From positions 12,558 to 75,931 of the forward strand of contig NZ_JAKFHA010000040.1 in NCBI RefSeq assembly GCF_021502675.1: a stretch of DNA of 63,374 nucleotides. Direction: 5' to 3'. Below, one piece after another: positions 10,456 to 61,035 of the stretch (the stretch's first letter is position 1; every line of letters begins with the position of its first letter). Origin of the DNA: Yinghuangia soli (GTDB lineage: Bacteria > Actinomycetota > Actinomycetes > Streptomycetales > Streptomycetaceae). The notes under the pieces were generated by a model. The model searched no databases. It saw only the letters and a list, made by a program, of their open reading frames with translations, and was not told the origin of the DNA. A program made the position numbers and the translations under genes.

Positions 10456-10471
10456 AGGGAAGGGGATCAGG

Positions 10472-12187: not shown

Positions 12188-12197
12188 AGTCGTGATC

Positions 12198-12870: not shown

Positions 12871-14082
12871 GTGACAGATAGTCAAAGTGTCCGGGATACA
12901 GGCGATTCCACCGATGTGGTCATCCTGGGGGCGGGACCGGCCGGTCTCGTCCTCGCAAATCTCCTGCTGGACGCCGGAGTCGGATGCGTGGTCCTCGAAC
13001 GCGCCGACCGCGAGCACGTGCAGACCCGGGCGCGGGCCGGGTTCCTGGCCGCGAACACCGTGCGCGTGCTGGAACGCCACGGCCTGGCCGACGGACTGCG
13101 CCGCGGCGGCCGGGAGCACAGCGTCTGCGAGTTCCGCACCGGGGACGGCCGCTTCCGCCTCGACTACAGCGGCCTCGGCCGCGGCGAACCGCACACGGTG
13201 TACCCGCAGCAGGAGTTGGTGACCGACCTGCTCACCCGGTTCCTGGCGGCCGGCGGCGATCTCCGCTTCGCGACCGAGGCGGTGGCCGTGCACGATCCGG
13301 ACACCACACAGCCCTGGGTGGAGACGCGCGACGCCGACGGCCGCCCCGGACGCTGGACGGGCAGGTACGTGGCCGGCTGCGACGGCCGGCACGGCGCGGC
13401 CCGGCGTTCGCTGCCGCCCGGCGCGGTCCGCATCCACCGGCGCGACCACGGAGTCTCGTGGCTCGGCCTACTCGCCGAGGCGCCGCCCAGCCTCGACGCG
13501 GTCGGCTACGCCATGCACGAGCGCGGGTTCGCCGGGCACATGGCCCGCACCCCCGAGACCACCCGCTACTACCTCCAATGCGAGCCCGGCACTTCCCCCG
13601 CGTCATGGTCCGAGGAACGCATCTGGGACGAACTCACGGTCCGCATGCGCGCCGCGGACTACGGCGCGCTGCACCACGGCCGCATCGTGCAGAGCACCGT
13701 GGTCGACCTGGAGTCGGACGTCCTCGAACCGCTGCGCCACGGCTCGCTGTTCCTGGCCGGAGATGCGGCGGGCCTGATCAGCCCGTCGGCCGCCAAGGGC
13801 GCGAACCTCGCGGTGCTGGCCGCCGAGATCCTCGCCGAGGCACTGGTGGACGACCTCCGCAACGCCGACCCCGGACCTCTCTCCCGCTACTCGGCCCGCT
13901 GCCTGGCGCACATCTGGCGGGCACAGGAGTTCTCGCTCTGGATGATCCGGCTGCTGCACCGCGCGCCCGGGCAGGACGACGAGGCGCTCTTCCAGGAGCA
14001 ACTCCGTCGCGCGCGCGTCGAATCGCTGCGCACCTCGCGCACCCACCAGGACTGGTTCGCCGACAACTACGTCGGCATCTGA
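12871..14082 (+). CDS. FAD-dependent aromatic monooxygenase (PobA-like)
   Basis: This 403-residue group A flavoprotein hydroxylase has an N-terminal Rossmann motif VVILGAGPAGLVLAN, the shared FAD/NADPH motif GCDGRHGAARR near residue 170 and the second FAD motif FLAGDAAGLISPSAAKG near residue 300. Length and motif order match 4-hydroxybenzoate 3-monooxygenase, and the C-terminal RTHQDWFADNYVG also fits. The likely reaction is ortho-hydroxylation of a phenolic acid with NAD(P)H and O2. An O-methyltransferase follows on the same strand after 106 bp, which suggests hydroxylation then methylation. The start is GTG. Substrate identity is inferred from family only. Confidence 0.85.
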   Translation: MTDSQSVRDTGDSTDVVILGAGPAGLVLANLLLDAGVGCVVLERADREHVQTRARAGFLAANTVRVLERHGLADGLRRGGREHSVCEFRTGDGRFRLDYSGLGRGEPHTVYPQQELVTDLLTRFLAAGGDLRFATEAVAVHDPDTTQPWVETRDADGRPGRWTGRYVAGCDGRHGAARRSLPPGAVRIHRRDHGVSWLGLLAEAPPSLDAVGYAMHERGFAGHMARTPETTRYYLQCEPGTSPASWSEERIWDELTVRMRAADYGALHHGRIVQSTVVDLESDVLEPLRHGSLFLAGDAAGLISPSAAKGANLAVLAAEILAEALVDDLRNADPGPLSRYSARCLAHIWRAQEFSLWMIRLLHRAPGQDDEALFQEQLRRARVESLRTSRTHQDWFADNYVGI

Positions 14083-42840: not shown

Positions 42841-43023
42841 GGCAGGCTCCTCGGCTTCGGTCGGGCGGTCGGGCGGCGGGCTTCCCTGCCGACGACCTGA
42901 ACGATGCCGAGGGCCCCTGACGGTTTCCCGACGGTTCTCGCACGCCCCGCGCACAACGCCGCCTCCCCCATCCCTGCCACTCCCCGTCCGGCCCCGCATC
43001 ACCTGCGGGTTAGCGTGGGCGGC

Positions 43024-46000: not shown

Positions 46001-46392
46001 TGGCCTTGCACCTGGAAGGCCACGCCGCCGCCGAGCGCACCGGCGACCCGCGCGCGGTCGCGTACGCCCTGGAAGGCCTCGCAGGTGCCCGCGCCGCCGC
46101 AGGCACGGCGGGCGACGCCGAAGCCGCGGCCCAGGCCGCCTCTCTGCTGGGCACCGCCGAGGCCCTCCGCGCCTCCGTGGGCAGCCCGCTCCCCGCAGGC
46201 GAACGCGAGGACGCCGACCGGGCCGCCGCGGCCGCGCGCGCCACGCTCGGCGAAGCCGCCTGCGACGCCGCCCACCGGTCCGGGCTGAGCCGCACCGCCG
46301 AAGACCAGGTCGCCGCAGTCCGCGCCGCCACCGGGACCGGCGGCTCACCCGGGGACACGTCCTCCGAAGCCCTCACGGCCGCGGCCCCATGA
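43024..46392 (+). CDS. AfsR-like SARP regulator (HTH-BTAD-NB-ARC-TPR), second copy
   Basis: This 1122-residue regulator has the same domain order as the one at 24944: DNA-binding domain (1-90, MRFDVLGPVAVHTDAGVPV), BTAD (about 98-250), STAND ATPase with Walker A GPGGVGKTS near residue 316 and Walker B LLVLDNCEHV near 400, then TPR-like repeats. The two copies are recognisably paralogous along their length. It is divergent from the oxidoreductase run (183 bp). No biosynthetic genes lie immediately downstream, so its target is open. Confidence 0.9.
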   Translation: MRFDVLGPVAVHTDAGVPVAVPGAKVRALLADLLVHHGSPVSADRLVEDLWGDTVPGNPANTLQTKISQLRRALDGAEPGARGLVARLPAGYRLQAEDDAVDAARFTALLGRARYESDPGTRIGLLVDALALWRGPAFADFQDADFARAAAAKLAEQRLTAQEDLAELRLARGEHGLVAGELADLAAEHPLRERLRAAHMQALYRAGRPSEALAAFQDLRTRLADDLGLDPGPEITALHQAILRQDPDLAALPRTTAASTPTAEAAPAASSPAAPPVPRPRTNLPARTAEPIGRDEQTDRVCARLAGTRLLTLTGPGGVGKTSLALAAARRLADHPTGAEDPFPDGVHLVELAAERAGADAPVAAAIAAALGLRDEAADRSSATERLAAALASRRLLLVLDNCEHVVDEAAALTARLLRATHGVRILCTSQEPLAVAGEEIEAVAPLDEADAVRLFTERAAAAAPGFTLGPGDAETAAAICRRLDNLPLAVELAAARVRVLGVAGLADRLDDRFRVLAAGRRDAPSRQRTLRAMIDWSWEPLTAPERAVLRRLAVFRNGCTLAAAEAVCGPRPHSEPNDAYWQFAPDAPDVLDIVTRLADRSLVTVVQGAAGPRYRLLESVAAYGRERLAEAGETAESTARHRACFTAFAERAEPHLVTREQRTWLSRLDDDAANLRAALESGTAPANAEAHAEEAHATQAPAAEALRLANALSWYWMLRGRLAEACRSLDAALTAAAPTLPGRADAQARRAAFGLLRGDGTGSGTVVPDAAPRAAWMLAFARVGFGSTADVAPELDRLLSAFKANGDRWGEAATYGTRASKAIYDGDLPALRANAAAAADLFAELGDRWGHLRATEQLGILAEIGGDYTEAARLHRQAVRSAEDLHLWVDVSFRLARLGRTALLSGDIGQADDFHARALDLARGQSHKPAEQFAATGLAIGARRRGDLDLARDLLTPWVAWNRSRGVAAGEALVLAQLGLVAEQQGDAAAALALHLEGHAAAERTGDPRAVAYALEGLAGARAAAGTAGDAEAAAQAASLLGTAEALRASVGSPLPAGEREDADRAAAAARATLGEAACDAAHRSGLSRTAEDQVAAVRAATGTGGSPGDTSSEALTAAAP

Positions 46393-46570: not shown

Positions 46571-49030
46571 GTGACCGATGCGACGACGAACCTGCTGTGG
46601 CACGCCGGCCGGGCACTCGGCGCGGACATCCTGGCCCGCCTCGAGACACCTGCTCCGCAGCCGCACGCAGCCGCGGAGCCGCTGCCACCCGCGGTGCTGG
46701 AGGACGCCCTGCGGCACGGCGACGCGCAGCGGGTCATCGGCACGTTCCACGGCGCCGCGGCCACCGCGCGCACCGGCAAGGGCACCGCGCCCGACCCCGG
46801 CACGCTGCTCCGCTTGCTGGAGCGGGACGACCCGGAGACCAACGAGGTCCTGTTCCGGCAGTCCGGCTGGCCCGCGCTCCGCCAGGCCGTCCTCGGCCAG
46901 CAGCGCCACGCACCGCATCCGGCCCCGCACACCGACCCGGCCGCGGACCCGGCCGCCACCGAGACCCCGGTACCGCTCGCCCCGAGCCTGCGGGACCGGA
47001 TATTCGCCGTCGGCGGCCTGGAAGACCTGCAGGCCGCACTGTCCGCAGCCGACCCCGACCTGGTGTTCTGGGCGCTGGCCGGCACCCGGTCCGGCGGCGC
47101 GCACGGCGGCCCGATGGCCCGGGTACGCGCCTGCGTGACGCTCGACGACGCCGGCCGCACGGCCCAACTCCGCCACATCCTCAAGAACTTCCCGATCGAG
47201 TTGCCCGCCGGCGCACCGCCCGAGGCGTACGAGCAGTTGCACGCCAGGCGCCCGCGCGCCCTGATCCGGCAGTACCTGGACGAGGCCTACGGCGACGTGG
47301 CCCTGTGCGCCAAGCTCGCCCGCGCCCGCAAGGCCTCGAACGGCCGGGCCCTGGTCCGCGACGTCCTCGTACCGCCGTGGGCGATGCTCGCCGCCCGGCA
47401 CGCCGAGACCCCGCTGCCCTGGGGCGCCGCCGTCGCCCTCCTCGAAGACACCCGCTGCCCGGCCGAGTTGCGCACCGCGCTCTTGCGAACCCACCCGCGC
47501 GCCGTGCAGATGGTGCCCACCCCGGGCCCCGAGGTGCTGGCCGTCTGCGCCGACCTCGGCGAGGACCAACTGACGAAGAAGGTGCTGCTGCAAGGCGTCG
47601 CCGCCGGGTCGGTCGACGCGGCGCAGCTGGTATACGCCTGCCGCCCCGCCCGGCTCGCCCTGACCTCACTGGTCCACGGCGGCATCGAGGCCGTGGCCAC
47701 GCAAGCCGAAGCGATCGAGACTGTCCGGCACTTGCTGGCCTCGGGCACAGCCGACCGGCCCGAAAGCTGGCGCGACCTGTACGCGGCGCTCCCCACCTTC
47801 CCCGGCTCACCCGCCGAGCTGCTCACCGCCTCACCCCGCCCCGACGACGCCGCCCCGACCGACGAACTCCCCATCCTGAGTGGCCAGTCCGCGTGGGCCT
47901 ACGCGGTACTGCTCGGCATCGCCGGCCCCGAGTCCACCACCCCCGCACTCCGATTCCTCGACGACGCCCGGCTCGCCCCGCTCGCCGGCACCCGCGAAAT
48001 CCCGCACCACCTGGCCGGCCACATCCTCAGGCACAGCGGACCCGTGGCCCGCCGCGTCCTCGCCGGCAACCCCGACGTGCGCCCGGACCTGCTCGAGCAG
48101 TTGGTCATCGGCGGGGACCAGGCCATCGCCTCCGCCGCCTACCGCAACCCGCGCTGCCCCTTCGCCCTGCGCCAGTACATCCTGTCCCTGGACGGCATCG
48201 ACGACGGCCTGCGCGCCGAACTCCTCCGCTCCTACCGCGATCAGGACCTGTGGCCGCTGCTCGCCTCGCCGGACGCCGAGCTGCTGCGGCACGTCGTCCA
48301 GGCCCGCCGGCACGACCCGTACGCACAGTGGGCCGCCCTGCGTGCCGCGCACCGGCTGGCCGAACTGCACGGCGTGTCCGCGCTGGAAGGCCTGCCCTCG
48401 GTGCCGGAGATCGACGCCGCCCGGCAGCACGGCAGCATCGCCCCGCTCACCGAGGCCTTGCAGACCTGCGACCTGGAGTGGGCCAAGGCTCTGGTCGAAG
48501 CCACCGGGATCCCGTACCGGCGGACCCCCGAGGGCATCGTCGCCGCGCTCGCCGACCCCGGGCTCGACTGGCGGGCCGTCGCGGCCGCCGGCCGGCACCG
48601 CGACGCGTCCGACCAGATCGGCCACGTCCTCAAGCAACGCCCCGACTACCCCGTGGAGTTGGCACTGCAGCAGATCCCCCCGCAACGCACCTCGGAGCGC
48701 GCGCATCCGGTCGCGGACAGCCGACTGGGCGAACTCCACCGGTCCTACGTCACGGCCGCGCTGCCCGGCACCCCGGTGGTCTGGGCCGACGGCGTACGCC
48801 TGCTGCGCGCCGGGACCCTCACCACCGCCGAGTTTCTCGCCGCGAGTCCGGCCTACACGGTCGTGCAGTGCGCGGCGTCGTACCCGCCGCTGGCCCGCGA
48901 AGTGGCGCGCTACCTGCGCACCGAGCTCGGCGACTCGGTCGACGCCTGGGTCGTGGCCGCCCGCATGCTCGGCCACGGAGTCCTCCCCACCCTCCCCGAA
49001 GTCACCGCCACCGCGAAGGCGGCCGTGTGA
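46571..49030 (+). CDS. Large alpha-solenoid-like protein, member 1 of a local paralogue family
   Basis: This 819-residue, Leu/Ala-rich, probably all-helical protein has no catalytic motif. Short units resembling leucine-rich-variant/HEAT repeats recur (AGNPDVRPDLLEQLV, AYRNPRCPFALRQYIL). A shared block starts at Trp270 (WAMLAARHAETPLP, then DTRCPAELRTALL), and the C-terminus has WVVAARMLGHGVLPTLPEV. The same blocks occur in the next two genes. Starts are often difficult here; the GTG at 46571 follows GGAAGGGGG. The stop overlaps the next start (GTGA). Function is unknown. Its placement with MoxR/VWA genes suggests a scaffold or target-recognition subunit. Confidence 0.8.
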   Translation: MTDATTNLLWHAGRALGADILARLETPAPQPHAAAEPLPPAVLEDALRHGDAQRVIGTFHGAAATARTGKGTAPDPGTLLRLLERDDPETNEVLFRQSGWPALRQAVLGQQRHAPHPAPHTDPAADPAATETPVPLAPSLRDRIFAVGGLEDLQAALSAADPDLVFWALAGTRSGGAHGGPMARVRACVTLDDAGRTAQLRHILKNFPIELPAGAPPEAYEQLHARRPRALIRQYLDEAYGDVALCAKLARARKASNGRALVRDVLVPPWAMLAARHAETPLPWGAAVALLEDTRCPAELRTALLRTHPRAVQMVPTPGPEVLAVCADLGEDQLTKKVLLQGVAAGSVDAAQLVYACRPARLALTSLVHGGIEAVATQAEAIETVRHLLASGTADRPESWRDLYAALPTFPGSPAELLTASPRPDDAAPTDELPILSGQSAWAYAVLLGIAGPESTTPALRFLDDARLAPLAGTREIPHHLAGHILRHSGPVARRVLAGNPDVRPDLLEQLVIGGDQAIASAAYRNPRCPFALRQYILSLDGIDDGLRAELLRSYRDQDLWPLLASPDAELLRHVVQARRHDPYAQWAALRAAHRLAELHGVSALEGLPSVPEIDAARQHGSIAPLTEALQTCDLEWAKALVEATGIPYRRTPEGIVAALADPGLDWRAVAAAGRHRDASDQIGHVLKQRPDYPVELALQQIPPQRTSERAHPVADSRLGELHRSYVTAALPGTPVVWADGVRLLRAGTLTTAEFLAASPAYTVVQCAASYPPLAREVARYLRTELGDSVDAWVVAARMLGHGVLPTLPEVTATAKAAV

Positions 49031-50955
49031 CCGCCGACACCCATCCGCTGCTGCGGTACGCCGACCCGGCCACACGCGATGCGGCCGCCGAACGGCTCCG
49101 GCTCGCACCCGGCCCCGAGCCCGAACCGCCCGTCCCGGTCGACCCGGAAGGCGTGATCGCCCGCCTGCGCTCCGGCCGCGGCAAGGATCCGCGGTACGTG
49201 CTCGACGGCGTCACCGTCACCGACTGGGACATGATCGTCCGCGAGCACCGCAAGGCGCCGCTGCCCGACGTGATAGCCGCCGGCCTGGTCGCCCGCGACG
49301 ACTGCCCGCGCGAGGCCGTCCTCGAACTGGTGGTGGCGCGTACCGTCAGCCGGCGCGGCCTGGCCACCGGAACGCTCGCCAACGCCCTGCTCCGCGGCAT
49401 CCTGACGCCGCACGACGTCATGTTCGAGGCGGCACCCGGCTGGTCCGCGCTGCGTGTGCTGGAGAAGTACGCGGTCAAGCACGGCGACTGGCTGCGCCCG
49501 GTACGCCGTGTGCTCACGGACGCCGCCGAGCTCCTGCCCGGTGACGACCCGGCGGCCTGGCAATGGCTGCTGACGCACGGCCCGCGCTTCCCCGGCACCT
49601 ACCCGGAACTCTGCGCATACGCCCGGACCCTGGCCCGCGCCGGAGCCTCCGCGGCCACCGCACCGGCCCCGGACGCGACCGGTGACGCCCAGGCCACCGT
49701 CGACTGGGACTTCGGCAACCCGGCAGGCCTGCTGTCCCGGATCCGCCCCTCGCTCGCCGCGAAGATCATCGGGATGCTCCCGGAGACCGCGGTCATCGCC
49801 TTCCTGGAGACCCCCGACCTGCCGCCGTCCGTCATCGTGCCCGCGCTGCGCCGTGCACCCGCGATGCGGAGCCGCATCCTCCGGAGTGCCGATCTGGGCC
49901 GGGCCGGAGTCGAGGCGCTGCTGGCGCTGCGCGACTCCGACGTGAACGGCGCACTCCTGGAAATCGCCCCGCAGCGCGCCGACATCACGCTGGCGATCCA
50001 CCGCGCCACGCGCCGCGACCAGCCGCGGAACGTGCCGCTCGGCGCCGCCGCCCGGCGCTTCCTGGTCAACCACCACGACCCGGCACGGGAGAACATCGCC
50101 ACCGCCGTCCACGGGCACTATCCGCAGCTGATCCAGGCCGCGTTCCGGCAGCTCGGCGAACGCCTCGGCACTGCACGGGCGTTGCGCGGCTTCCTGAGCC
50201 TGTGGGAGTGCCAGGGACCGGACGGCGTACGGGCCGCGGCGGCCGACCCGCGCCTCGGACTCGGCCCGGAGACGCGCCGGATCGTGCAGGCCGCGCTCGA
50301 CGCCGCGGACCGCTCGAACGACGGGGTGAACGACCCGGCCGGCGCCGCCGGATCGGCACTGCTGCGTGCCGAAGTCGCCCGCCACGAGCACCCCACCGCG
50401 CTGATCGAGGCCATGCGCGAGGACCCGCGCCTCGCCGGGCAGCCGCTGCCGCCCGAGTTCTGGCCGGTCGCGGTCACCGCGCACGCCCGCGACCCGCTGC
50501 CTGCCCCCGCCCTCGCGCGCCTGGCCGCCCAGCCCGGCTGCCCCGAGGCCCTGGGACTGGCCGCCTGCCAGGCGCTGCCCGAACTGGCCCGCACCCTCGG
50601 CGGCCGGTCGCGGCCGTACGCCCTCACCGCCATACGCGATCCGCTGCACCTGGCCTCGGTGACCTGGCAGACCCCGCGCAACGCCTGGTACTTCGACGCG
50701 ATCGACAGCTCGCTGCTCAGCGCCGAGGAGTTCGTCGAACTCGCCCATCCCGTCACGACGATGCTGGACGCGCTGGACAACATCCGGGCGATACTGCCGC
50801 ACGCCAACGAGGCCGCCGAGCGGCACATCGCCAAGCTGCTGCACACCGCGCTCGGCGACGATCCGGAGGCCTGGACCGTCACCGCCCACCTCATGCCCGA
50901 CTTCGTCGGCACCCTCCCCGAACTCCTCGCCACCGTCGAGGCGGTCACCCGTTGA
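49027..50955 (+). CDS. Alpha-solenoid-like protein, member 2
   Basis: This 642-residue relative of member 1 has the common block starting at Trp67 (WDMIVREHRKAPLP, then RDDCPREAVLELV) and the C-terminal signature WTVTAHLMPDFVGTLPEL. It is helical, with no membrane segments or enzyme motifs. The GTG start overlaps the previous stop by 4 nt and its own stop overlaps the next start (TTGA), so the three proteins are made in a coupled manner and probably in fixed ratio. Confidence 0.8.
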   Translation: MTADTHPLLRYADPATRDAAAERLRLAPGPEPEPPVPVDPEGVIARLRSGRGKDPRYVLDGVTVTDWDMIVREHRKAPLPDVIAAGLVARDDCPREAVLELVVARTVSRRGLATGTLANALLRGILTPHDVMFEAAPGWSALRVLEKYAVKHGDWLRPVRRVLTDAAELLPGDDPAAWQWLLTHGPRFPGTYPELCAYARTLARAGASAATAPAPDATGDAQATVDWDFGNPAGLLSRIRPSLAAKIIGMLPETAVIAFLETPDLPPSVIVPALRRAPAMRSRILRSADLGRAGVEALLALRDSDVNGALLEIAPQRADITLAIHRATRRDQPRNVPLGAAARRFLVNHHDPARENIATAVHGHYPQLIQAAFRQLGERLGTARALRGFLSLWECQGPDGVRAAAADPRLGLGPETRRIVQAALDAADRSNDGVNDPAGAAGSALLRAEVARHEHPTALIEAMREDPRLAGQPLPPEFWPVAVTAHARDPLPAPALARLAAQPGCPEALGLAACQALPELARTLGGRSRPYALTAIRDPLHLASVTWQTPRNAWYFDAIDSSLLSAEEFVELAHPVTTMLDALDNIRAILPHANEAAERHIAKLLHTALGDDPEAWTVTAHLMPDFVGTLPELLATVEAVTR

Positions 50956-53351
50956 CCCGGGCCGACCAGGAACTCGCCGCGTTCCTGGCGTACGCCTCCG
51001 CCGAGGACACCGCCGCCACGCTGCCCCGCCTGTCCACGGCCACCCGCCTCGGCCTGCTGCGGTACGGCGGCACCCCGTCCCCGGCCTTGGCCGCTTGGGC
51101 CACCGGCCACGGGACGCCGGACGAACACGCCGCCCTGGCCCGCAACTCTGCTGCGGGCCGCGACACCCTCGCCCGTCTCGCGGCCGTCGCCGACGGCCCG
51201 GCCCAGGCCCTCGTCTACGTCCACCCGCAGACCACCGCCGGCCTGCGCCGGACCATGCTGGACGCCGATCCGCTGCCCGCCGCGCTGCGCGACCTGGTGC
51301 TCGGCACCCCGCGCTCCCGCCGCGTCCTCGGCCCCGCGCTGTCCTGCCGGCACCCCGAACTCGCCGCGCACGCACGTGCGCACATCCGCGGACCCGGCGG
51401 CAGCACACCCGCCGAGACCCCGCGCGAGCTGTACGAGTGGCTGTCCCGCACCTCGGGCGACAGCGCGCGCTCGCGACGCCGGGCCCGCGGGCGCCTCGCC
51501 GCCTTCCCCGTCCACACGTGGGGTGCCGACGCGTGGGCGGAACTGACCGCGCTGCACAGCGCCGGCCTCCTCGACGAACGCGCCTGCACCGCGCTGGTCG
51601 AACTCCCGGAATGCCCGCTGCCCACCGCGCTGGCGCTGGTCCGGACCCGCATGCCGGACGGCGGTACCGGCTACGTCGTGGCCGCCGGCCTCCGGGCAGG
51701 CACCTTCACCGCCCGCGAACTGGTCCGCGAAACCCCGTACGCGGCCCACCTGCTGCGCACTCTGGAAACCGCCGAGCGGGCGTACGAGAACGAGATCCGG
51801 CCGCACGACCTCGCCGAGATCCACCGCGAGCTGACCGACCTCGCACACCGGGACATCGGCGCCGAACCGGCCGTCTGGCGCGCACTCCTGGAGCTGCTCC
51901 ACGACGAGTTCACCGGCCCACTCCCCGAACTCGCGGCTGCCGCCCGCCGACTTGCCGAGACCGCCCCGCGAGTCCCGCGGCGTCCCTGGCCGGTCCCCGG
52001 CGAATCCTCCTCGTCCCCGTTCGCCCACCTGCTGCGCTTCGCCGACCAGGCTGCGGTACCCGGGATCGTCGCCGCCCTGGACCCGCACGACCTCGCCGAG
52101 TTCGCCCACTACGAAGTCCCGCACGGCCCGACCGACGCCATGACCGATGCGTTCCTCGACCGCGCCGGCCCGGCCCTCGCCGAACTCTTCCTGCACCGCC
52201 AGTGGTTCCGCGGGAATGTCCTGCACCAGGTCGTACGCCGCGACGACCCCGACCTGAACGCCGCTCTGGTGACCGGTCGCGGTATCCCCGCCGCGGCCTG
52301 GATCGCGATCGCCTCCGGACGCCCGCACACCCCGGGCCGCAGCACCCCCGTCCCGCTCGCCGCCGGCACGGCCGCCGCACTGCGCGACCGGGTCGGCGAC
52401 AAGATCGGCAACTTGCGCTTCGCGGTCCGGACCCGCGACCCCGACCTGATCTCCGAAGCCCTGCACCTCGCCGATCCCGGCCTGTCCCCCGGCCATCAGG
52501 TGATCGGCTGCCGGCGCCTGCTGGAACTGGGCCGCGCCGACGACGTCCGCGCCCTGGCCAGGCCGCACGGCCCCCTCGACCCGCTGCTCGCGACCCGGAT
52601 CCGCAACACCCCTGCCGCCGCGGACCCGGCCGCACCGACGGACCCGGCCACACCGACGGCATCGACCGCATCGACCGCGCTGGCCGAGACGCTGGCCCGC
52701 ACCGAGCGCGACCTCCTCCGGCACGAACTGGCGCACGGCGCCCACGACCAGACCGGCGGCCTCCTGGACGACGAGGACCTCCCCTGGGCCGAGGTCGCCG
52801 CCGCCGTCCGCCGCGCCGAACTCCCCTGGCAGGTCGCCTTCGCCCTGGCCCGGCGGCCCGACCTGCCCCCCGACGTCGCCGTTGCGATGCTCGAACACGG
52901 CGCCCCGGACGCGTACGCCGCCCCCACCCTGGCCCAGAGCTCCCGGCCCGCCGCGCTCACCGCGCTGCGCCGGCTGCCCGCCGTCCCCGCGGTGAACGCG
53001 GTCGGCCCACTGGAGGAAAGCCGCGCCTGGCCCCTGCACTGCGTCGCCGAAGGCCTGATCAGTGCCGCCGAACTGTACGCGCAGGGCCGCCCGGCGCGGT
53101 CCGTGCTCCTGCTCGGCCGGGCCTTCCCGGACCGGCTCGCCGGGCTCCGTGCGATCCTCGGAGCGGAGATCTCCCGGCACTGCGCCGGATCCTCGGACAC
53201 CTGGGCGGTCGCCGCCGCCCTCCTGGGCGGGTTTCCCGGTACCGTCCCCGACCTGCTCGGGGTCGCCGCGGCGGCCGCCGCACCCGCAGCGGCCGGCACC
53301 GGTGCCGCGCCCGTCCGTCCTGCCCGCCCCGTGGGAGACGGCGGAACCTGA
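50952..53351 (+). CDS. Alpha-solenoid-like protein, member 3
   Basis: This 799-residue protein starts with a TTG inside the preceding stop (TTGA). It carries repeat-like units (ARNSAAGRDTLARLA, VHPQTTAGLRRTML), the common block around Trp195 (WAELTALHSAGLL, then PECPLPTALALV) and the C-terminal signature WAVAAALLGGFPGTVPDL. A low-complexity PTDPATPTAS segment lies at about 556-575. There are no catalytic motifs. It is the last of the coupled trio; an 83-bp gap with an inverted repeat separates it from the VWA gene. Confidence 0.78.
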   Translation: MTRADQELAAFLAYASAEDTAATLPRLSTATRLGLLRYGGTPSPALAAWATGHGTPDEHAALARNSAAGRDTLARLAAVADGPAQALVYVHPQTTAGLRRTMLDADPLPAALRDLVLGTPRSRRVLGPALSCRHPELAAHARAHIRGPGGSTPAETPRELYEWLSRTSGDSARSRRRARGRLAAFPVHTWGADAWAELTALHSAGLLDERACTALVELPECPLPTALALVRTRMPDGGTGYVVAAGLRAGTFTARELVRETPYAAHLLRTLETAERAYENEIRPHDLAEIHRELTDLAHRDIGAEPAVWRALLELLHDEFTGPLPELAAAARRLAETAPRVPRRPWPVPGESSSSPFAHLLRFADQAAVPGIVAALDPHDLAEFAHYEVPHGPTDAMTDAFLDRAGPALAELFLHRQWFRGNVLHQVVRRDDPDLNAALVTGRGIPAAAWIAIASGRPHTPGRSTPVPLAAGTAAALRDRVGDKIGNLRFAVRTRDPDLISEALHLADPGLSPGHQVIGCRRLLELGRADDVRALARPHGPLDPLLATRIRNTPAAADPAAPTDPATPTASTASTALAETLARTERDLLRHELAHGAHDQTGGLLDDEDLPWAEVAAAVRRAELPWQVAFALARRPDLPPDVAVAMLEHGAPDAYAAPTLAQSSRPAALTALRRLPAVPAVNAVGPLEESRAWPLHCVAEGLISAAELYAQGRPARSVLLLGRAFPDRLAGLRAILGAEISRHCAGSSDTWAVAAALLGGFPGTVPDLLGVAAAAAAPAAAGTGAAPVRPARPVGDGGT

Positions 53352-53355
53352 CCGG

Positions 53356-53384
53356 ACCGTCCACGCGTCAATTGCTTGGACGGT
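53356..53384. promoter_or_regulatory. Inverted repeat between solenoid trio and VWA gene
   Basis: ACCGTCCA (53356-53363) and TGGACGGT (53377-53384) form perfect 8-bp arms around 13 nt. The repeat begins 5 nt after the stop of member 3. It may be a weak terminator or an operator for an internal promoter of the VWA gene. Confidence 0.4.
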
Positions 53385-53434
53385 TGTCAGCTCCGCCTGG
53401 AACCATCGAACCTGTCCGAAGGGAGGTGATCGAA

Positions 53435-54883
53435 ATGGCCTACGGATCGACCAAAACCCCTAAGCCCCTGGTCGTCGAACTGACCGACCGCCGGGCCCTC
53501 GAAGCCTGGCAGCCGGCCGACGACGAGGTCGTCGCGAAAGCCCGCGAGCTCAAAGAGCAAGCACTGCTCGACTTCGGCATGCAGGCCAGCGTCATCGCCT
53601 CGTGGCTCTACACCAAGTGCCACCACCAGATACCGACCACCGCGATCGACACCGCGGCGGTCATGGCGTCCGGCGACGGCACCTGCCTGCTGCTCTACAA
53701 CCCCGACTTCTTCGTCGCGCTCGGCCTGGACGGCGTCAAGTTCGTGCTGTTCCACGAGGCCCGGCACCTGATCCAGCGCCACCTGTTCGCGGACGCCGAA
53801 CTGCGCGCCGACCCGGTGTTCACCCTGGCCGCCGAGGTCACCATCAACCACGTCGCGATGAAGCGCCTGGGCCGCTCCGAGCTGCCCCTGGTGCGGCGTA
53901 CCGACCCGGAGACCGGCGAGGTCACCGAGGAGCCGACCGGCGTCGACCCGCGCAAGATCCATGCACTGTACGTCGCCGACCTGGACGAGCAGGGCCTCGA
54001 ACCGCTCCCGTACGACGACTTCATCCTCACCGACGCCCTGGTCTACGCCGAGCTCAAGCGCATGAAGGACCCGCCGGTCCCGCCCCCGCTGTGCGTGCAC
54101 CTGGTGCTCGGCGACGGCACCGGCGAGAACGACGGGCTGGACCCGGAAACCGTGGCCCGCATCTCGTCCGAGGTGCTGCGCGGCGTCCTGCTGTCCGCCC
54201 GGCGCGGCATGCGGCTGGCCCGCGAGGAACTGCTCGAACTGCTCAAGCGCACCGACGGCGCCACCGATGCGGCCACCAAGATGTGGGGCGACCTCGGCGC
54301 CGGATTCCTGCGCGGCGAGACCCAGAAGACCCGCCGAGTCGACTGGTGGCAGCAATGGCTGATCGACGTGCTGTCCTCCAAGCTGCGCGACGGCGAGCGC
54401 CTGGTCTACCCGAAGAAGCGCGGTGCGCTGCTGGCCACGCTCGGGCACGACCCGATGCTCGCCCGGCGCGGCCAGGAGCGCACGAAGGTCGTGGTGGTCG
54501 CGTACGACACCTCCGGGTCGATGCCCGGGCACGTCATCGAGTGGCTCACCGAACTGGTCGGGCACACCGACGGCGTCGAGGCGCACTGGCTGAGCTTCGA
54601 CGGCGCGCTCATGCCGTTCAAGCCCGGCGAGCGCGTCTACGGCGGCGGCGGGACCGACTTCCAGCAGGTCGCCGACTACGTGGAGGGCCGCCTCTCGGTG
54701 GCCGGGCACCGCTTCGACGAGAGCGTCGACGCGGTCCTCATGCTCACCGACGGCTACGCCCCCGCGATCACCCCCGCCGAACCGGACAAGTGGATCTGGC
54801 TCATCACCGAAGGCGGCGACGAGTGGCCCGAGCGCCACGACCCGCCGATGGCCTGCCACCGCGTCACCACCGGAGACCGCTGA
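53435..54883 (+). CDS. DUF2201 metallopeptidase-like domain plus VWA-like domain protein
   Basis: This 482-residue protein has an N-terminal half that is a putative zinc metallopeptidase domain of the DUF2201 type with HEARH at residues 107-111. The C-terminal half is a VWA-like domain with a complete MIDAS: DTSGS (358-362), the GGGGTDF threonine and TDG in LMLTDGY. Such proteins pair with MoxR-type AAA ATPases, which remodel them. That partner is the next gene. A very strong ribosome site, GGGAGGTGAT, precedes the ATG, suggesting high expression. Its place after the three solenoid proteins suggests that they feed into or regulate this VWA/AAA pair. Confidence 0.88.
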   Translation: MAYGSTKTPKPLVVELTDRRALEAWQPADDEVVAKARELKEQALLDFGMQASVIASWLYTKCHHQIPTTAIDTAAVMASGDGTCLLLYNPDFFVALGLDGVKFVLFHEARHLIQRHLFADAELRADPVFTLAAEVTINHVAMKRLGRSELPLVRRTDPETGEVTEEPTGVDPRKIHALYVADLDEQGLEPLPYDDFILTDALVYAELKRMKDPPVPPPLCVHLVLGDGTGENDGLDPETVARISSEVLRGVLLSARRGMRLAREELLELLKRTDGATDAATKMWGDLGAGFLRGETQKTRRVDWWQQWLIDVLSSKLRDGERLVYPKKRGALLATLGHDPMLARRGQERTKVVVVAYDTSGSMPGHVIEWLTELVGHTDGVEAHWLSFDGALMPFKPGERVYGGGGTDFQQVADYVEGRLSVAGHRFDESVDAVLMLTDGYAPAITPAEPDKWIWLITEGGDEWPERHDPPMACHRVTTGDR

Positions 54884-54909
54884 ACCGGCAGCCGGACACC
54901 CGACCCCGA

Positions 54910-54935
54910 GCGGGCCGCGGATCACCGCGGCCCGC
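54910..54935. terminator. Strong hairpin between VWA and AAA genes
   Basis: A perfect 11-bp stem (GCGGGCCGCGG / CCGCGGCCCGC) with an ATCA tetraloop lies 27 nt after the VWA stop and 78 nt before the AAA start. It could act as a partial terminator or an mRNA processing or stability element that sets different levels of the two proteins. Confidence 0.6.
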
Positions 54936-55013
54936 CCTCGTACCGCAGCCCGCACGCGTGCCGCAGCCCGATCCCGCACCCGTACCGCCGAACTCCTGTT
55001 TGCGGAAGGACCC

Positions 55014-56885
55014 ATGACCATCACCGCCGACACCCCGCAGACCGGGGGCCGGACCGCGCGCCCGGTCTGGAAGGCCACCGCGACCTTCCCCGAGCCGCCG
55101 AAGGGCTGGAAGGGCGCCTCCAAGCTCGAGGAGTTCATCGACGCGATGATCGACCTCGGCCAGACCGGGCAGATCTTCGGCGAGCACGGCATCGGCAAGA
55201 CCGCCACCTTCTTCACCCACATCCCGGACAAATACCCGGACACCGCCCTGGTGTTCGTGCCGGCCGCCAACCTCACGCCGGACGACCTCCTCGTCAACAC
55301 CCCGGTCCGCGACCCGCGGACGAACGACCTGGTGCTGCGCCAGCTGATCATGCGGCAACTGCGCCCGGGCACCCCGTTCGTCCTGCTCATCGACGACGCG
55401 CTGCAGGCCGGCGAGACCATCCAGTCGCAGCTGATGCAGGTGGCCTGCAACTGGACGCTGGGCGAGTTCGACCTGCGTGAACTGGGCTGCATCGGGGTCT
55501 TCCTGACCGACAACGAGTCCCTCACCGAGACCGCGACGCGGCGCAGCGACCTGGCCATCCTGGACCGGATGGTCACCGTCAAGATCACCGCGACCGACAC
55601 GTCGTGGCGCATCAAGCTGGCCGAGCGCTTCCCGCACCACGACCTGTCCGGCGTCTTCAAGATCTGGACCGGGCTGTCCCCCGCGCTGCGCCAGCTCCTG
55701 TCGCCGCGCACCCTGGAGCACATCCTCGACTGCGCCCTTGCCGGCTTCCCGCTCGAATGGGGCCTGCCGCTGCTCAACGGCGACCGCCTGCGGCTCGTCG
55801 AGGCGCTCAAGGACGGCACCCCGGGCCCGGACCGCACCGACGAGACCCTGGACCGCATCGCCACCGCGCTCGGCGTCCGCAACCCCGAGCACACCCCCGA
55901 CGCGGTCCGCCGCGTGGTGCGCGAGGCCGTCGCGCGCCGCTGGGCCGTCCTCATCCAGGGCCCTCCCGGCTGCGGCAAGACCGAGGTGGTCCGCGAGGTC
56001 GTCCGCGAGGAACTCGGCCACGACCCCATCTACTTCTCGCTGCCGGTCACCAACGTCGAGGACCTCTGCGCACCCGTCCCGACCGTCGACGGCTCGCTCG
56101 ACAACCTGCTCGCGCAGCGCTTCACCGCGCCCGGCGACAAGGTCATCGTGTGGGACGAGTACAACCGGCCCAAGGACAAGTCGGCGTTCGCCAAGCTCAT
56201 GGAGATCACCCAGGAGTGGTCCATCGCGGGCCGCCGGATCCCCGGGCTGCGCGCCCAGATCGCCCTCCAGAACCCGCCGTACCACCTGGGCCGCAAGATG
56301 CTCGTGGCGCGCAACAACATTGCGCAGGCCACCCGCTTCACCGCATCGCTCCAGGTGCGGCCCGAGGACATCCCGGCCAACGAGTGGCTCATCGCCACCT
56401 ACGGGCCGATCGCCGAGACCGTCCTCGAATGGTGGAAGGCGGACATCGACGACGAGGGCCGCGAGTGGATCACCAAGCGGACCCTGGAACGCCTCATCAA
56501 GCTGCACCGGCGCGGCATGGACCTGGAGATGGCCAAGGTCTACCTCGGCGACGGCGAGTACGCACCGGTGCCGCTCAACGCGCTCGAATCGCGGCTCGCC
56601 GACAAGCCGCGCACCGGGCTGGGCGACATCGCCGCGAACCTCGAGGCGTGGGAGCAGCGGCTGCGGGCCGGCAACGAGGTCTCCGGTGAGGGCACGAACG
56701 ACACCGACGTGGTCCACCAGGTCCTCGCCAACGCCGAACTCTCGCAGCTGCGCGAGCACATCGACACGGTCGCGCGCCTGCTGGCCTGCCTGCCGCCCAA
56801 GCTGAAGTCCAGCTACCTGGTGGGGCAGTCGGAGGAGAAGCAGCGCTTCTGGATCGACGCGTTCGCCCGCATGCCGCGCAACTAG
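55014..56885 (+). CDS. Tandem MoxR-like AAA ATPase
   Basis: This 623-residue protein has two AAA+ modules. Module 1 has Walker A GEHGIGKT (56-63), Walker B LLIDDA and sensor-1 FLTDNES. Module 2 has Walker A GPPGCGKT (316-323), Walker B VIVWDEYN and sensor-1 ALQNPP, as in MoxR/dynein-like ATPases. A helical C-terminal part follows. MoxR ATPases act as chaperones for VWA proteins, and the VWA gene is directly upstream. Walker B of module 1 has Asp-Asp instead of Asp-Glu, so that module may bind more than hydrolyse ATP. The ATG at 55014 follows GGAAGGA. Confidence 0.88.
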   Translation: MTITADTPQTGGRTARPVWKATATFPEPPKGWKGASKLEEFIDAMIDLGQTGQIFGEHGIGKTATFFTHIPDKYPDTALVFVPAANLTPDDLLVNTPVRDPRTNDLVLRQLIMRQLRPGTPFVLLIDDALQAGETIQSQLMQVACNWTLGEFDLRELGCIGVFLTDNESLTETATRRSDLAILDRMVTVKITATDTSWRIKLAERFPHHDLSGVFKIWTGLSPALRQLLSPRTLEHILDCALAGFPLEWGLPLLNGDRLRLVEALKDGTPGPDRTDETLDRIATALGVRNPEHTPDAVRRVVREAVARRWAVLIQGPPGCGKTEVVREVVREELGHDPIYFSLPVTNVEDLCAPVPTVDGSLDNLLAQRFTAPGDKVIVWDEYNRPKDKSAFAKLMEITQEWSIAGRRIPGLRAQIALQNPPYHLGRKMLVARNNIAQATRFTASLQVRPEDIPANEWLIATYGPIAETVLEWWKADIDDEGREWITKRTLERLIKLHRRGMDLEMAKVYLGDGEYAPVPLNALESRLADKPRTGLGDIAANLEAWEQRLRAGNEVSGEGTNDTDVVHQVLANAELSQLREHIDTVARLLACLPPKLKSSYLVGQSEEKQRFWIDAFARMPRN

Positions 56886-56914
56886 CAAGCGAGCACAGGC
56901 ACTCCGCACGAAAC

Positions 56915-56958
56915 ACAGCGGCGGCAGACCGCCCCAAGGGCCAGTCTGCCGCCGCTGT
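56915..56958. terminator. Bidirectional terminator
   Basis: A perfect 15-bp stem (ACAGCGGCGGCAGAC / GTCTGCCGCCGCTGT) with a 14-nt loop fills the gap between the convergent AAA gene and solenoid member 4. Confidence 0.85.
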
Positions 56959-56964
56959 CGTACG

Positions 56965-58830
56965 TCAGCCTCCGGGACGGTACGCGGCAGCCGCCGCGAG
57001 CCCCACCAACTCCGGCAGCGTCCCCTCGAATTCGGGCAGCAGCTGGACGAACACCGCCCACGTCTCGGCATCGGCGCCGAGCTGCGGAAGCACCTGCCGG
57101 GCCAGCTCCGCGCGGTACTCCTCGGCACAGCCGTCGGGGCTCGCGGTGAGGACCGCCTCCAACGCCTGGCGCGCAGGCCTCCCGTGCGCCACCAGGTCGG
57201 CCGGGGTGACCGCACGCAGCCAGCCGTCGTGGCCCGGGTCGGCGGTCGACGCGCGGATGCGCTCGGCCGGGGCCAGCTCGTACAGGCCCGGCTCGGCGGG
57301 CGGCACGGCCTTCTTGGGCCGGTGCCACTTCGCCCGCGCCTCGGCCAGCACCGAAGGCGACTCCTCGGCGAAGGCCCGCTGCATCACCGCGAGCACCGGC
57401 CCGGTGAACCGCTCCGGCACGGACGTCACCACTCCCTGAGCCGCGGCCATGCCCTCGCGCTCCCACACGCTCAGCACGATGTCCGCCAGATCGATGCGGC
57501 GCAGCGTGCCGTGCTGCGCGAGCCCCAGGCACACCAGCGCCGAGTCGCCGCTGAACATCAGCGTGCTGGGCTCCAGATGATGCGGATTCCCGATCGCCAA
57601 CTCGCGCAGCACCGGGTCCATCGGCCGCCGCGGCCGCCCCTCCGGCGCCGCCCCGGCAAAGATCTCGCGACGCAGCGCAGCCGACGTCCCCGCCTTGTTC
57701 CAGGCCAGGATCCGGTCCAGTTCCACATCGTCGTACGCCATGATCCGCCGCGCCTCCGCATCGCGCAGATGCTGGTGCGCGGCGATCTTGCGCAGCAACT
57801 GCGGATGCCGCGTCCTGTGCGCGAGGGCAAGCATCCCCGCCCGAACCGGGACATCACCCGGAATCAGATCGGAAGCACTCTCGTGGTCCAGATGCGGCAG
57901 CAGCACCTCGAGCGCGTCCTCCGGCATGCGGCGCAGCAGGAACAGCAGTGAGGGCCGGGCCTTGCCGGCCGGCACCACGGCCGCATCCGGCGCCGGGTCG
58001 GCTGCCACTTCGTCGAGCAGCGCACACAACGACACTTCGGCCCCGGGCAACCGCTCGGCGAGCCGGGCCCACCGATGCGGATCAGCGCCCACCGTGGCCT
58101 CCAGCAGCGGACGGATATGCGCATCGGTCTGCTCCGCATCCCGGAAACACGCCGAATGCCGGCGCGACAACCGCGCGAGGAGTTTCACCGCGGCAATCGC
58201 CGGCCGGATCCGCCCATAGATGTCCTCAGGGGCCAACGCCCCGCGCTCCAAGGCGTAATAAGCCAGTTCCGACAGAGACTCGTGCTGCGCCGGCCACGGC
58301 TCATCGATGCGATGCATCAGCAAAGTGAGCTGACGCGGCGAAGACCGCCAATGCCGCGACACGTACACGCGCGCACTATGCGCCAATACAGGGTCCGCAG
58401 CCAGCAATTCCAGCGCCCGCTCAGGCGCGCACTCCGGCTTTTGGAGTTCAGCCGCGGCCGCATCGAGCCGATCGGTTTCCGCACTCCGGGGCAGCGGCTT
58501 GCGCTCCTCCGCCTGCCACCCGGGCTGCGGATCGTCAGGCGGCGAGAACACCGCCCGCACCACCGGCGACCCACCCGCCGCTATCAGCACCCGGACCTGT
58601 TCAGCCGTCAGACACGGGTTCCCGGCCAGCCCCGCCAGGTCCGCCGCCCCGCATTCCTCGGCCGCCACCTGCACGAACGCATCCGGCAGCACCACCCCGT
58701 CCCGCATCCGCGCTGCCAACCGCCCGGCCCCGAGCGCAGCCGCAACCCGCCCGAAGACCTTCGCCGCATCCCCCGCCTCCCGCTCCGCCAACGCGGCCAG
58801 CAACAGATGGACAGGTGGTTCGAAGCTCAT
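56965..58830 (-). CDS. Alpha-solenoid-like protein, member 4 (opposite strand)
   Basis: This 621-residue, mainly helical protein has repeat-like units (AGNPCLTAEQVRVLIAA, AIGNPHHLEPSTLMF). The C-terminal signature WAVFVQLLPEFEGTLPEL is the same as in members 1-3. Near residue 530 it has PAERIRASTADPGH...TPADLVAHGRPA, which is also found in the neighbouring remnant. It faces the AAA gene across a shared terminator. The ATG at 58830 follows GGGGGAGAC. No catalytic residues are evident. It probably belongs to the same system as the plus-strand genes. Confidence 0.78.
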   Translation of the reverse strand: MSFEPPVHLLLAALAEREAGDAAKVFGRVAAALGAGRLAARMRDGVVLPDAFVQVAAEECGAADLAGLAGNPCLTAEQVRVLIAAGGSPVVRAVFSPPDDPQPGWQAEERKPLPRSAETDRLDAAAAELQKPECAPERALELLAADPVLAHSARVYVSRHWRSSPRQLTLLMHRIDEPWPAQHESLSELAYYALERGALAPEDIYGRIRPAIAAVKLLARLSRRHSACFRDAEQTDAHIRPLLEATVGADPHRWARLAERLPGAEVSLCALLDEVAADPAPDAAVVPAGKARPSLLFLLRRMPEDALEVLLPHLDHESASDLIPGDVPVRAGMLALAHRTRHPQLLRKIAAHQHLRDAEARRIMAYDDVELDRILAWNKAGTSAALRREIFAGAAPEGRPRRPMDPVLRELAIGNPHHLEPSTLMFSGDSALVCLGLAQHGTLRRIDLADIVLSVWEREGMAAAQGVVTSVPERFTGPVLAVMQRAFAEESPSVLAEARAKWHRPKKAVPPAEPGLYELAPAERIRASTADPGHDGWLRAVTPADLVAHGRPARQALEAVLTASPDGCAEEYRAELARQVLPQLGADAETWAVFVQLLPEFEGTLPELVGLAAAAAYRPGG

Positions 58831-59031
58831 GTCTCCCCCGGACTCCGCAGCCGACGACCAGGCACAGTATTCCGCCCGCCCACGACACCGCGCCGAGCCG
58901 TGAACCCCGTGATCAGGCCTGCCGTGCCACCGTGGCGGCCAGGGCCGCCAAGTCGTGTCTGTCGGATCTTGGTGCCGCTCGCGGTGTTCGGTGCCGGGCG
59001 CCGTGGGCGCTCGGGAGGGCCACCAGGCCCG

Positions 59032-59412
59032 GTACAAGACCCTGCAGACACGGCCTGGTTCCGGCAGCGTCCCACCGAAGTCCGGGAGCAGTGGCACGCA
59101 TACCGCCCAAGCCTCCGGGTCCGTACCGAGTCCCGGGATCACCTGCCGCGCGATCCCGGCCGGTAGCCGGCCGCGGCGCGCTCGTCGCGATCGGCTTCAG
59201 GCACGGCCGCCAGCGCAGCCGTCGCACTTCGTCCGCGCCCGACGAGGTCGGCCGGAGCGACCCCGTACAGCCGATCGCCCATCCCCTCGAAGTCCCACGC
59301 GATCGCACGGATGCGCTCTGCAGCCGGGACTTCCCCGTCGGCCCGCCATTTCGGCTCCGGCGGCACCTTGGTGCGCTGCGAGTTCGCGTAGGCCCGTACC
59401 AGCGCGCGCCGG
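59032..59412 (-). pseudogene. Degenerate remnant of a fifth solenoid family member
   Basis: Only the last 125 or so codons of a member-4-like gene remain, starting right at the HerA-like gene's stop codon. The first part (59140-59412) reads PAERIRAIAWDFEGMGDRL...APADLVGRGRSA. A frameshift near 59140 moves the rest into another frame: WAVCVPLLPDFGGTLPEP. After that the similarity ends without a proper stop. The fragment lies in tandem with, and in the same orientation as, member 4. Confidence 0.75.
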
Positions 59413-61035
59413 TCAGCGGCGGCGTTTGGCGGTGCCGAAGAGGTTGCGGGTGATTTCGCGGACGGCGGTGTTGAGCATGCCCTTCACCGCGGAGTTCTTG
59501 AGCACCGTCTCGACGACCGTCGGTTCCGGCTTCGGCTGCCGCGCGGGCGGACGCTGGGCCTTCGCCTCGGCCTTCGCCTGGGCCTCGGCGTCCGCCTGGG
59601 CCTGGGCCTGGGCGGCTTCCGCGGCGGCGGTCTCGGCGGCGGCCGTCTGGGCGGCGGTGAGCTTCTCGTAGGCGGACTCGCGGTCGACCGCGGTGCCGTA
59701 GCGGCCCAGCAACGGGGAGGCGTTGACGACGGCCTGCAGCGCCGCCGGGTCGATCTGGGCCATCAGGGACTCGGGCGCGCGCAGCCGGGTCCAGGCCACC
59801 GGGGTCGGGGCGCCCTTCTCGGACAGGACCGTGACGGCCGCCTCGCCGGTGCCCATCTGGGTCAGCACCTCGGCCAGGTCGTACGAGGAGTTCGGGAAGG
59901 TCGAGACGGTCGCCTTGAGCGCCTTGGCGTCCTCGGGGGTGAAGGCGCGCAGTGCGTGCTGGACGCGGTTGCCGAGTTGGGCGAGCACGTCGCCGGGGAC
60001 GTCCTTGGGGGTCTGGGTGACGAAGAAGATGCCGACGCCCTTGGACCGGATCAGCCGCACGGTCTGGGTGATGGCGGTGAGGAACGCCTTGGACGCGCCG
60101 GTGAACAGCAGGTGCGCCTCGTCGAAGAAGAACACCAGCTTGGGCCGGTCCAGGTCGCCGACCTCGGGCAGGTCCGCGAACAGGTCGGCGAGCAGCCACA
60201 TGAGGAACGTGGAGAACAGCTGCGGCTTGTCCTGCACGGCCGGGAGTTCGAGGACCGAGACGAGGCCGCGGCCGTCCGCCGCGGTGCGCATCAGCTCGGT
60301 CGTGTCGAACTCGGGCTCGCCGAAGAAGACGTCGCCGCCGCTGTTCTCCAGCGTGATCAGCGAGCGCAGGATGACGCCCGCGGTGGCGGAGGAGAGGCCG
60401 CCGATGTTCTTCAGCTCCTCCTTGCCCTCGTCGGAGGTGAGGAACTGGATGACCGCGCGCAGGTCCTTCAGGTCCAGGAGTTCGAGGCCGCGCTGGTCGG
60501 CGAAGTGGAAGACCAGGCCGAGCGAGGACTCCTGGGTCTCGTTCAGGTCGAGGATCTTGGCGAGCAGGGTGGGGCCGAACGCGGTGATGGTGGCGCGGAT
60601 CGGGATGCCCGGGCCGAGGCCGCCCAGCGAGTAGAACTCGCACGGGTAGCCCTTCGGCTGCCAGTCCTGGCCGACGTCCTTCGCCCGCGAGGCGACCTTG
60701 TCGTTGGCCTCGCCGGGCTGCGAGATGCCCGACACATCGCCCTTGATGTCGGCGAGGAACACCGGCACGCCCTGCGCGGAGAGCTGCTCGGCGATCAGCT
60801 GCAGGGTCTTGGTCTTGCCGGTGCCGGTCGCGCCGGCCACCAGGCCGTGCCGGTTGAGCATGCCGAGCGGGATGCGGATCTGCGCATCGGGGTGTCCGGT
60901 GCCGTCCACGACGAGGGCGCCGAGGTCGAGAGCGGGGCCGGTGAAGGCGTATCCCGCGGCGATCGCGGCGACGACGTCGTCCGTGCCGCCGCTTTTTGCG
61001 CCCGTCTTGCCGTCGGTGCCGCCCTGGGCCGCCAT
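59413..61035 (-). CDS. HerA-like ATPase (DUF853, YjgR type)
   Basis: This 540-residue ATPase of the HerA/FtsK superfamily has Walker A GATGTGKTK (68-76), Walker B KLVFFFDEAHLL and a VTQTPKDVP segment near residue 345. A long Ala/Gln/Glu coiled-coil-like stretch (about 455-500) precedes a basic C-terminus. DUF853 proteins are conserved in Streptomyces and E. coli (YjgR) with no settled function. The GGAGGAG site precedes ATG 61035. It is divergent from the VapB-like gene and appears to be a core-genome anchor beside the solenoid/MoxR region. Confidence 0.9.
   Translation of the reverse strand: MAAQGGTDGKTGAKSGGTDDVVAAIAAGYAFTGPALDLGALVVDGTGHPDAQIRIPLGMLNRHGLVAGATGTGKTKTLQLIAEQLSAQGVPVFLADIKGDVSGISQPGEANDKVASRAKDVGQDWQPKGYPCEFYSLGGLGPGIPIRATITAFGPTLLAKILDLNETQESSLGLVFHFADQRGLELLDLKDLRAVIQFLTSDEGKEELKNIGGLSSATAGVILRSLITLENSGGDVFFGEPEFDTTELMRTAADGRGLVSVLELPAVQDKPQLFSTFLMWLLADLFADLPEVGDLDRPKLVFFFDEAHLLFTGASKAFLTAITQTVRLIRSKGVGIFFVTQTPKDVPGDVLAQLGNRVQHALRAFTPEDAKALKATVSTFPNSSYDLAEVLTQMGTGEAAVTVLSEKGAPTPVAWTRLRAPESLMAQIDPAALQAVVNASPLLGRYGTAVDRESAYEKLTAAQTAAAETAAAEAAQAQAQADAEAQAKAEAKAQRPPARQPKPEPTVVETVLKNSAVKGMLNTAVREITRNLFGTAKRRR

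Follow-up and report, generated by a model that had tools for sequence, protein, structure and literature searches.

A repeat-protein family with a shared C-terminal end accompanies a metallopeptidase-VWA/MoxR gene pair in Yinghuangia soli and other actinobacteria

What role might a set of large repeat proteins play beside a gene pair encoding a VWA protein and a MoxR-like ATPase? The question is raised by the 9.7 Mb genome of Yinghuangia soli, where region 46571-59412 of the window (the whole stretch of 63,374 nucleotides that was analysed) holds three such genes (G1, G2 and G3), the pair, a facing fourth gene (G6) and a gene remnant. We found that G1, G2, G3, G6 and the frameshifted remnant belong to one protein family, which sits beside the VWA and MoxR genes in other genera too. 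With moderate confidence, we propose that the repeat proteins are fast-evolving clients or adaptors of a single VWA-MoxR machine, recognised through their shared C-terminal end. The locus is laid out as follows:

46571..49030, + strand: G1, repeat-family protein, 819 aa, two units, C-terminal WVVAARMLGHGVLPTLPEV
49027..50955, + strand: G2, repeat-family protein, 642 aa, C-terminal WTVTAHLMPDFVGTLPEL; overlaps G1 by 4 bases
50952..53351, + strand: G3, repeat-family protein, 799 aa, two units, C-terminal WAVAAALLGGFPGTVPDL; overlaps G2 by 4 bases
53435..54883, + strand: DUF2201-type protein (the VWA protein), 482 aa, with an N-terminal HExxH (HEARH) domain and a C-terminal VWA domain with a full metal ion-dependent adhesion site (MIDAS)
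55014..56885, + strand: MoxR-like ATPase, 623 aa, two AAA modules, P-loops at residues 56-63 and 316-323
56965..58830, - strand: G6, facing repeat-family protein, 621 aa, C-terminal WAVFVQLLPEFEGTLPEL
about 59056..59409, - strand: remnant, the 3' part of a G6-like gene, frameshifted and so split over two frames, ending in WAVCVPLLPDFGGTLPEP

Are these proteins related beyond their composition, as a preliminary description of the locus had supposed? BLAST between members gave E-values of 2e-12 (G3 and G2), 3e-9 (G3 and G6) and 9e-9 (G3 and G1), computed for a nominal database of 3000 residues. A profile of 30 single-unit proteins from other genera, about 280 residues long and encoded directly upstream of the VWA gene, retrieved G2 and G3 at 6e-19, G1 at 5e-12 and G6 at 9e-13 among the proteins of 60 loci; none of 1996 reversed or shuffled controls matched the A1 or A6 family profile at E <10. 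The relationship is therefore real, and the remnant, with its two frames joined by hand, is 54% identical to G6 across 92 residues (BLAST). A unit of ~280 residues is repeated in the family. The halves of the long proteins are homologous and represent two tandem units (hhalign of the rows of alignment A2, 99.6%, E 9e-24), and the unit ends in a conserved signature, EAWAVxxLLPxFxGTxPEL. The five C-terminal strings first quoted for G1, G2, G3, G6 and the remnant are all present in the sequence. A second block, W..L...H...PLP...CP, had been assigned to the first three members: it is exact in G1 and G2, while the first copy in G3 has the W, L, H and CP, not the PLP.

The end of the protein is its best-kept part. 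In alignment A1, made of 22 short proteins (out of 55 family proteins from VWA-positive loci; two with tails cut), the W, E and L of EAWAVLAQLLPTFxGTxPEL are invariant, as is an upstream W......A......PG...W.......CP series. Among the 27 paralogues of the Y. soli genome, the last 52 well-filled alignment columns show 35-52% identity, against 19-26% elsewhere in the protein, as expected of a shared docking element. Our pattern located the signature near the C-terminus in 23 of these 27, with 9-31 residues following it, and the same pattern places it in that region in 46 of the 55 proteins from VWA-positive loci. As for the fold, 'solenoid' serves as a working name for what the repeats would form, because Pfam yields just weak matches to LRV (PF01816): three of the 27 members reach E 0.1 or lower, with 2.4e-4 as the best value, and the other 24 have no such match. 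The match in G3 is one short stretch of 15.6 bits, for a cut-off of 21.6. Searches against solved structures returned nothing useful for the repeat family or the VWA protein, and no effector domain was seen in Pfam scans of the window proteins or of the 27 members. A sister group (L170-L175, L161 and L163; about 1070-1550 residues) carries a C-terminal DPxW motif in place of FxGTxPEL; L170-L175 come from VWA-negative genomes of the same bacterial family.

The two partners are what they were first taken for. In the VWA protein, the HEARH-type HExxH motif and the D-x-S-x-S...T...D residues of the MIDAS are invariant in 34 of 34 aligned rows (33/57 usable rows and the window row). DUF2201_N is recognised in the window protein at 30.8 bits, above the curated cut-off of 23.2, and in all 34 rows at E 0.01; the VWA-like DUF2201 model matches 10 of them at the same threshold, and all 34 stop shortly past the VWA domain. 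The protein thus resembles DUF2201 proteins (PF13203/PF09967) in having DUF2201_N, HExxH and MIDAS, here paired with a two-module ATPase and a repeat family. In the ATPase, all 33 rows (32/54 usable rows and the window row) share both P-loops without change, with DD as the Walker B of module 1 and DE as that of module 2, and the two modules match each other (hhalign, 93.5%, E 2e-7). With Walker A and B intact and its gene adjoining the VWA gene, it has the likeness of a MoxR-VWA pair. Its profile gave 11 weak matches among solved sequences, along a short P-loop stretch; the best are AFG2 homologues (3e-6), and four others are midasin sequences (6e-6).

Does the family belong with the pair outside this locus? 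One scan of genome contigs, queried with the single VWA protein and so limited to close relatives, gave 59 loci with a VWA relative; the MoxR-like ATPase is present in 58 and directly follows the VWA gene in 54. The profile of the 27 own-genome members matched 55 of the 949 proteins in these loci, and all 55 lie within three genes of the VWA gene: 42 directly upstream, 7 further upstream and 6 downstream. The neighbourhood proposed in the preliminary description thus recurs in 50 of the 59 loci, one of them in Y. seranimata, and the genera concerned span several actinobacterial orders. Of the two outcomes that the preliminary description named as refuting it, proteins alike only in composition and a rare proximity to the pair, neither was observed. 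Most loci outside the window have one, shorter member, which in the majority of Streptomyces and Pseudonocardia-like loci is about 250-300 residues long; members of 520-920 residues (one of 476) are found in the Yinghuangia, Nonomuraea, Micromonospora, Virgisporangium, Actinomadura alba and Catenulispora loci.

Presence in whole genomes follows the same line. Among 150 genomes of the bacterial family, the VWA protein occurs in 21 and the repeat family in 36, and the latter is found in 21 of the 21 VWA-positive genomes (trivially so in our own) against 15 of the 129 VWA-negative ones (Fisher 2.5e-16, uncorrected for kinship, the overlap being counted by hand). The short-unit profile yields 20 of 21 against 6 of 129, and a set of 28 hand-picked genomes gives 17 of 17 against 2 of 11. 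Across 394 genomes of the class, a strong VWA match was found in six, five of which have a family match at 2e-14 or better; a seventh VWA match is weak (1.6e-4, genome G390), and genomes without the VWA protein gave one strong family match (genome G109) and six weaker ones (1e-10 to 2e-5). Family absences in these searches are not proof, since only the best candidates were scored per genome (7 for the family profile and 16 for the short-unit profile in the 150 genomes, 6 in the 394).

The early account spoke of a local expansion. Paralogues do lie beside the pair, but the expansion is genome-wide: at E 1e-3, we count 27 family genes in 17 fetched regions and the window, 23 of them outside the window, against one match to the VWA protein in the same genome. 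In the underlying searches, the short-unit profile produced 50 match stretches with an E limit of 10 and the long profile 40 with a limit of 0.01, and one family gene (at L134) may be broken, with a stop within the match. Match stretches, which are not genes, number at least 35, 44 and 21 in three Yinghuangia genomes, at least 12-24 in four Embleya-like genomes (g4), and at least 1-10 in ten other VWA-positive genomes. Inspection of 10 of 34 listed neighbours of orphan members by Pfam revealed no common partner; these were AbiEii, CAP, MFS, SMI1_KNR4, kinases, a chloride channel, TetR, DUF4429 and one without a match. The largest array among the viewed regions is L119 (own genome C56:243000-262900), where six family genes of ~400 residues stand in a row on one strand within 6426-13842. 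In three Embleya-like genomes (L031/L146, L079/L147 and L145), the VWA-MoxR pair has no adjoining family gene, and at least 16-24 family match stretches lie elsewhere in the genome.

The members beside the pair appear to occupy old positions. The order and strand of G1, G2, G3, VWA, MoxR and G6 are kept in two further Yinghuangia genomes, and in a tree of 65 C-terminal regions G1, G2, G3 and G6 fall in separate supported clades, each with its orthologues and one or two orphans (the tree omits eight very long, split or degenerate members, and its bootstrap had not settled). The closest named relative found is Y. seranimata (L030), with a VWA protein 90% identical to ours; its HerA-G6 spacing of 160 bp, for 582 here, leaves no room for the remnant. 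Over the three Yinghuangia genomes, VWA and MoxR orthologues are 90-94% identical, with a non-synonymous rate (dN) of 0.04-0.07, against 42-57% and 0.38-0.57 for the repeat proteins; HerA is 85% identical in the single relative having it. The ratio of dN to the synonymous rate (dN/dS) is 0.44-0.87 for the repeat proteins and 0.08-0.22 for VWA, MoxR and HerA. Positive selection on the repeat proteins is not claimed, their ratios being below 1; mis-paired unrelated proteins score 1.0-1.6 in the same script.

How could such proteins work with the pair? Published MoxR-VWA pairs capture their substrate via the VWA site and remodel it with ATP, maturing particular complexes (PMC7159879). Because published pairs follow this capture-and-remodel pattern, the repeat proteins may be regarded as a dedicated third component, whose body varies and whose common C-terminal end the VWA protein would recognise. 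The two-module ATPase would be the motor; the VWA protein would couple it to substrates via the MIDAS site, and may cleave them with its HExxH domain. In Yinghuangia, the third component would have grown to about 27 genes that all rely on a single motor, and four of these would have long kept fixed places next to it. The shared end would dock on the VWA protein, perhaps by placing the acidic residue of its signature on the MIDAS metal as a ligand. The MIDAS of midasin binds an acidic residue of its clients. Midasin also resembles our proteins in having several AAA modules per chain and a MIDAS domain, although the sequence match is very weak, and here the VWA domain is on a separate polypeptide and the modules are two (six in midasin).

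Several observations weigh against the proposal that the repeat proteins are clients or adaptors recognised by their C-terminal end. No member was found in 9 of the 59 loci, also by six-frame search of those loci: one is cut at a contig end, two are from Embleya, one from Actinomadura and five from Streptomyces or Kitasatospora. Of the nine proteins in which the signature was missed, five are Catenulispora-type members without it, so that it cannot be the sole link to the VWA protein; the others are two G1-type variants, one with the signature before a long tail and one with a shifted end. The inner unit of G1-G3 also ends in a like signature, which may thus be a structural cap. Relatives exist without the pair as well. 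We viewed 13 of the 15 VWA-negative genomes with the family (all but G079 and G148), adding G084 from the short-unit profile search. Seven of the 13 hold a longer relative of about 1070-1240 residues (one split by the gene caller) with a different C-terminus, two (G035 and G147) hold isolated members, that of G035 with an intact signature, and G040 retains the signature after loss of the VWA gene.

Decayed loci bear on the same point. Genomes G040, G069, G101 and G109, all VWA-negative, contain a single-unit leftover of the core locus, and in five loci without VWA-MoxR the signature end is lost or altered in four of the five leftover single-unit members. At the acidic position of the signature G040 has E, G109 has D and G069 has A, and in G101 and G084 the end is missing or gave no match; E stands there in 22 of 22 aligned single-unit members from VWA-positive loci (Fisher 3e-4 against the leftovers, a small sample confounded by general decay). 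In one VWA-negative locus (L176, 9351-10680), a family open reading frame runs into the last part of the MoxR gene, the VWA gene and most of MoxR being gone, which looks like a deletion scar.

Three other explanations are considered. The first is a role in conflict or immunity, which we regard as possible but doubtful: the repeat proteins would be diversified receptors that sense invaders and hand them to one VWA-MoxR-metallopeptidase executor, for containment or suicide. Such a role fits the fast divergence of the repeat proteins, the birth and loss of genes (many dispersed paralogues and a remnant), a lineage-restricted expansion, and a patchy presence of the VWA protein (21 of 150 genomes) with decayed loci, and is proven by none of them. 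In addition, the published ternary MoxR-vWA systems, called VMAP-ternary, are themselves proposed conflict systems (PMC7159879). However, in PADLOC, with E allowed up to 1, neither G1-G3 nor the VWA protein had a match, G6 had one weak match (E 0.027) and the ATPase was matched only around the P-loop; the scans mentioned above revealed no effector domain, and dN/dS stays below 1. No relative of the VWA protein was found in plasmid, phage or viral-contig sets, nor any of the repeat family in viral contigs, the one of these sets that was searched for it. A stricter version, in which dozens of fast-diverging receptors, some in old positions next to the motor and more copies dispersed over the genome, plug into one VWA-MoxR-metallopeptidase machine via a common C-terminal element that docks by setting its acidic residue on the MIDAS metal, as midasin clients do, seems to us improbable in that full form.

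How far does the locus resemble VMAP-ternary systems? In these, a fast-evolving third protein is encoded in one cluster with a MoxR ATPase and a VWA protein, commonly in actinobacteria (Kaur et al. 2020, PMC7159879), as it is here. However, their order is VMAP-MoxR-vWA, and ours is repeat protein-VWA-MoxR, 49 of the 55 members lying before the VWA gene; effector domains stand behind their vWA, whereas no fused effector was seen here; each set has its own three components, where here one motor would serve many third components; and our locus further differs in that its VWA protein has an N-terminal HExxH domain and its ATPase has two AAA modules. No Pfam match was named VMAP-C, for the window proteins at E 1 or for the 27 members at E 0.1, the presence of this model in the library being unchecked.

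According to the second explanation, equally doubtful in our eyes, the pair is a housekeeping or developmental chaperone that matures the repeat proteins as scaffolds in hyphal development or stress, their expansion being neutral. This would agree with the maturation of particular complexes by known MoxR-VWA pairs (PMC7159879), and with the genes that often follow MoxR elsewhere, namely a convergent leucine-rich repeat (LRR) gene in 29 loci and, in 41, a gene for a zinc-ribbon short-chain dehydrogenase (both at L087:13205-15720, for example). Neither follows MoxR in Yinghuangia. A check of 17 genomes detected the LRR protein in 4 of the 11 with the VWA protein, three Yinghuangia and two Embleya-like genomes being among those where it was not found, and in none of the 6 without the VWA protein; the decayed VWA-negative locus L176 holds an LRR gene, and relatives of the dehydrogenase sit elsewhere in our own genome. 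The patchy presence and the decayed loci nevertheless speak against an essential role, and the much faster divergence of the repeat proteins compared with their partners also counts against this explanation. Finally, a generic LRV/HEAT-like family, next to the pair by inherited synteny and with no functional tie to it, would account for the weak LRV matches, the orphans without a common partner and the relatives without VWA, but is very unlikely, given that members lie no more than three genes away from the pair, upstream or downstream, across genera, and given the 21 of 21 co-occurrence.

The preliminary description knew of no system with this layout, and our survey agrees: among the matches listed, the literature on MoxR/vWA, DUF2201, VMAP, COG3864, yehL/M/P, LRV and Yinghuangia or Embleya paralogues contained no description of a repeat-family/VWA-MoxR system. 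By title, no such system appears in the literature naming DUF2201, and the function of DUF2201 metallopeptidase-VWA proteins was not found described in the literature covered. The words DUF2201, LRV and solenoid are absent from the main text of PMC7159879. If the repeat proteins are indeed clients or adaptors, MoxR-VWA machines in many actinobacteria gain an apparently undescribed third component, with a rule that can be tested, namely that variable bodies share an end and a single motor, and the whole may be an undescribed kind of molecular machine; DUF2201 metallopeptidase-VWA proteins gain a gene context. Were receptors and executor the true reading, a bacterium would possess a large paralogous receptor repertoire. 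In E. coli, yehL/M/P have a like layout.

Some features of the locus remain to be mentioned. G1, G2 and G3 are probably co-translated, given their 4-base overlaps; the gaps are 83 bp between G3 and VWA, 130 bp between VWA and MoxR, and 79 bp between the convergent MoxR and G6. The gene caller starts G6 at 58707 and VWA at 53426, and 58830 was chosen for G6 to resemble the Y. seranimata orthologue. Terminator-like sites in the locus showed no excess over shuffles, and no promoter-like site was found there. Beyond the remnant lies a further gene, linked to the locus by association only:

59413..61035, - strand: HerA-like ATPase (HerA_C E 4e-195), start uncertain

This gene, beyond G6, is also present in Y. 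seranimata and four Embleya-like genomes (one partial), and absent from the second Yinghuangia genome. Upstream of G1, a large gene (window 43015-46392) resembles, by eye, a SARP/AfsR-type regulator with an NTPase domain.

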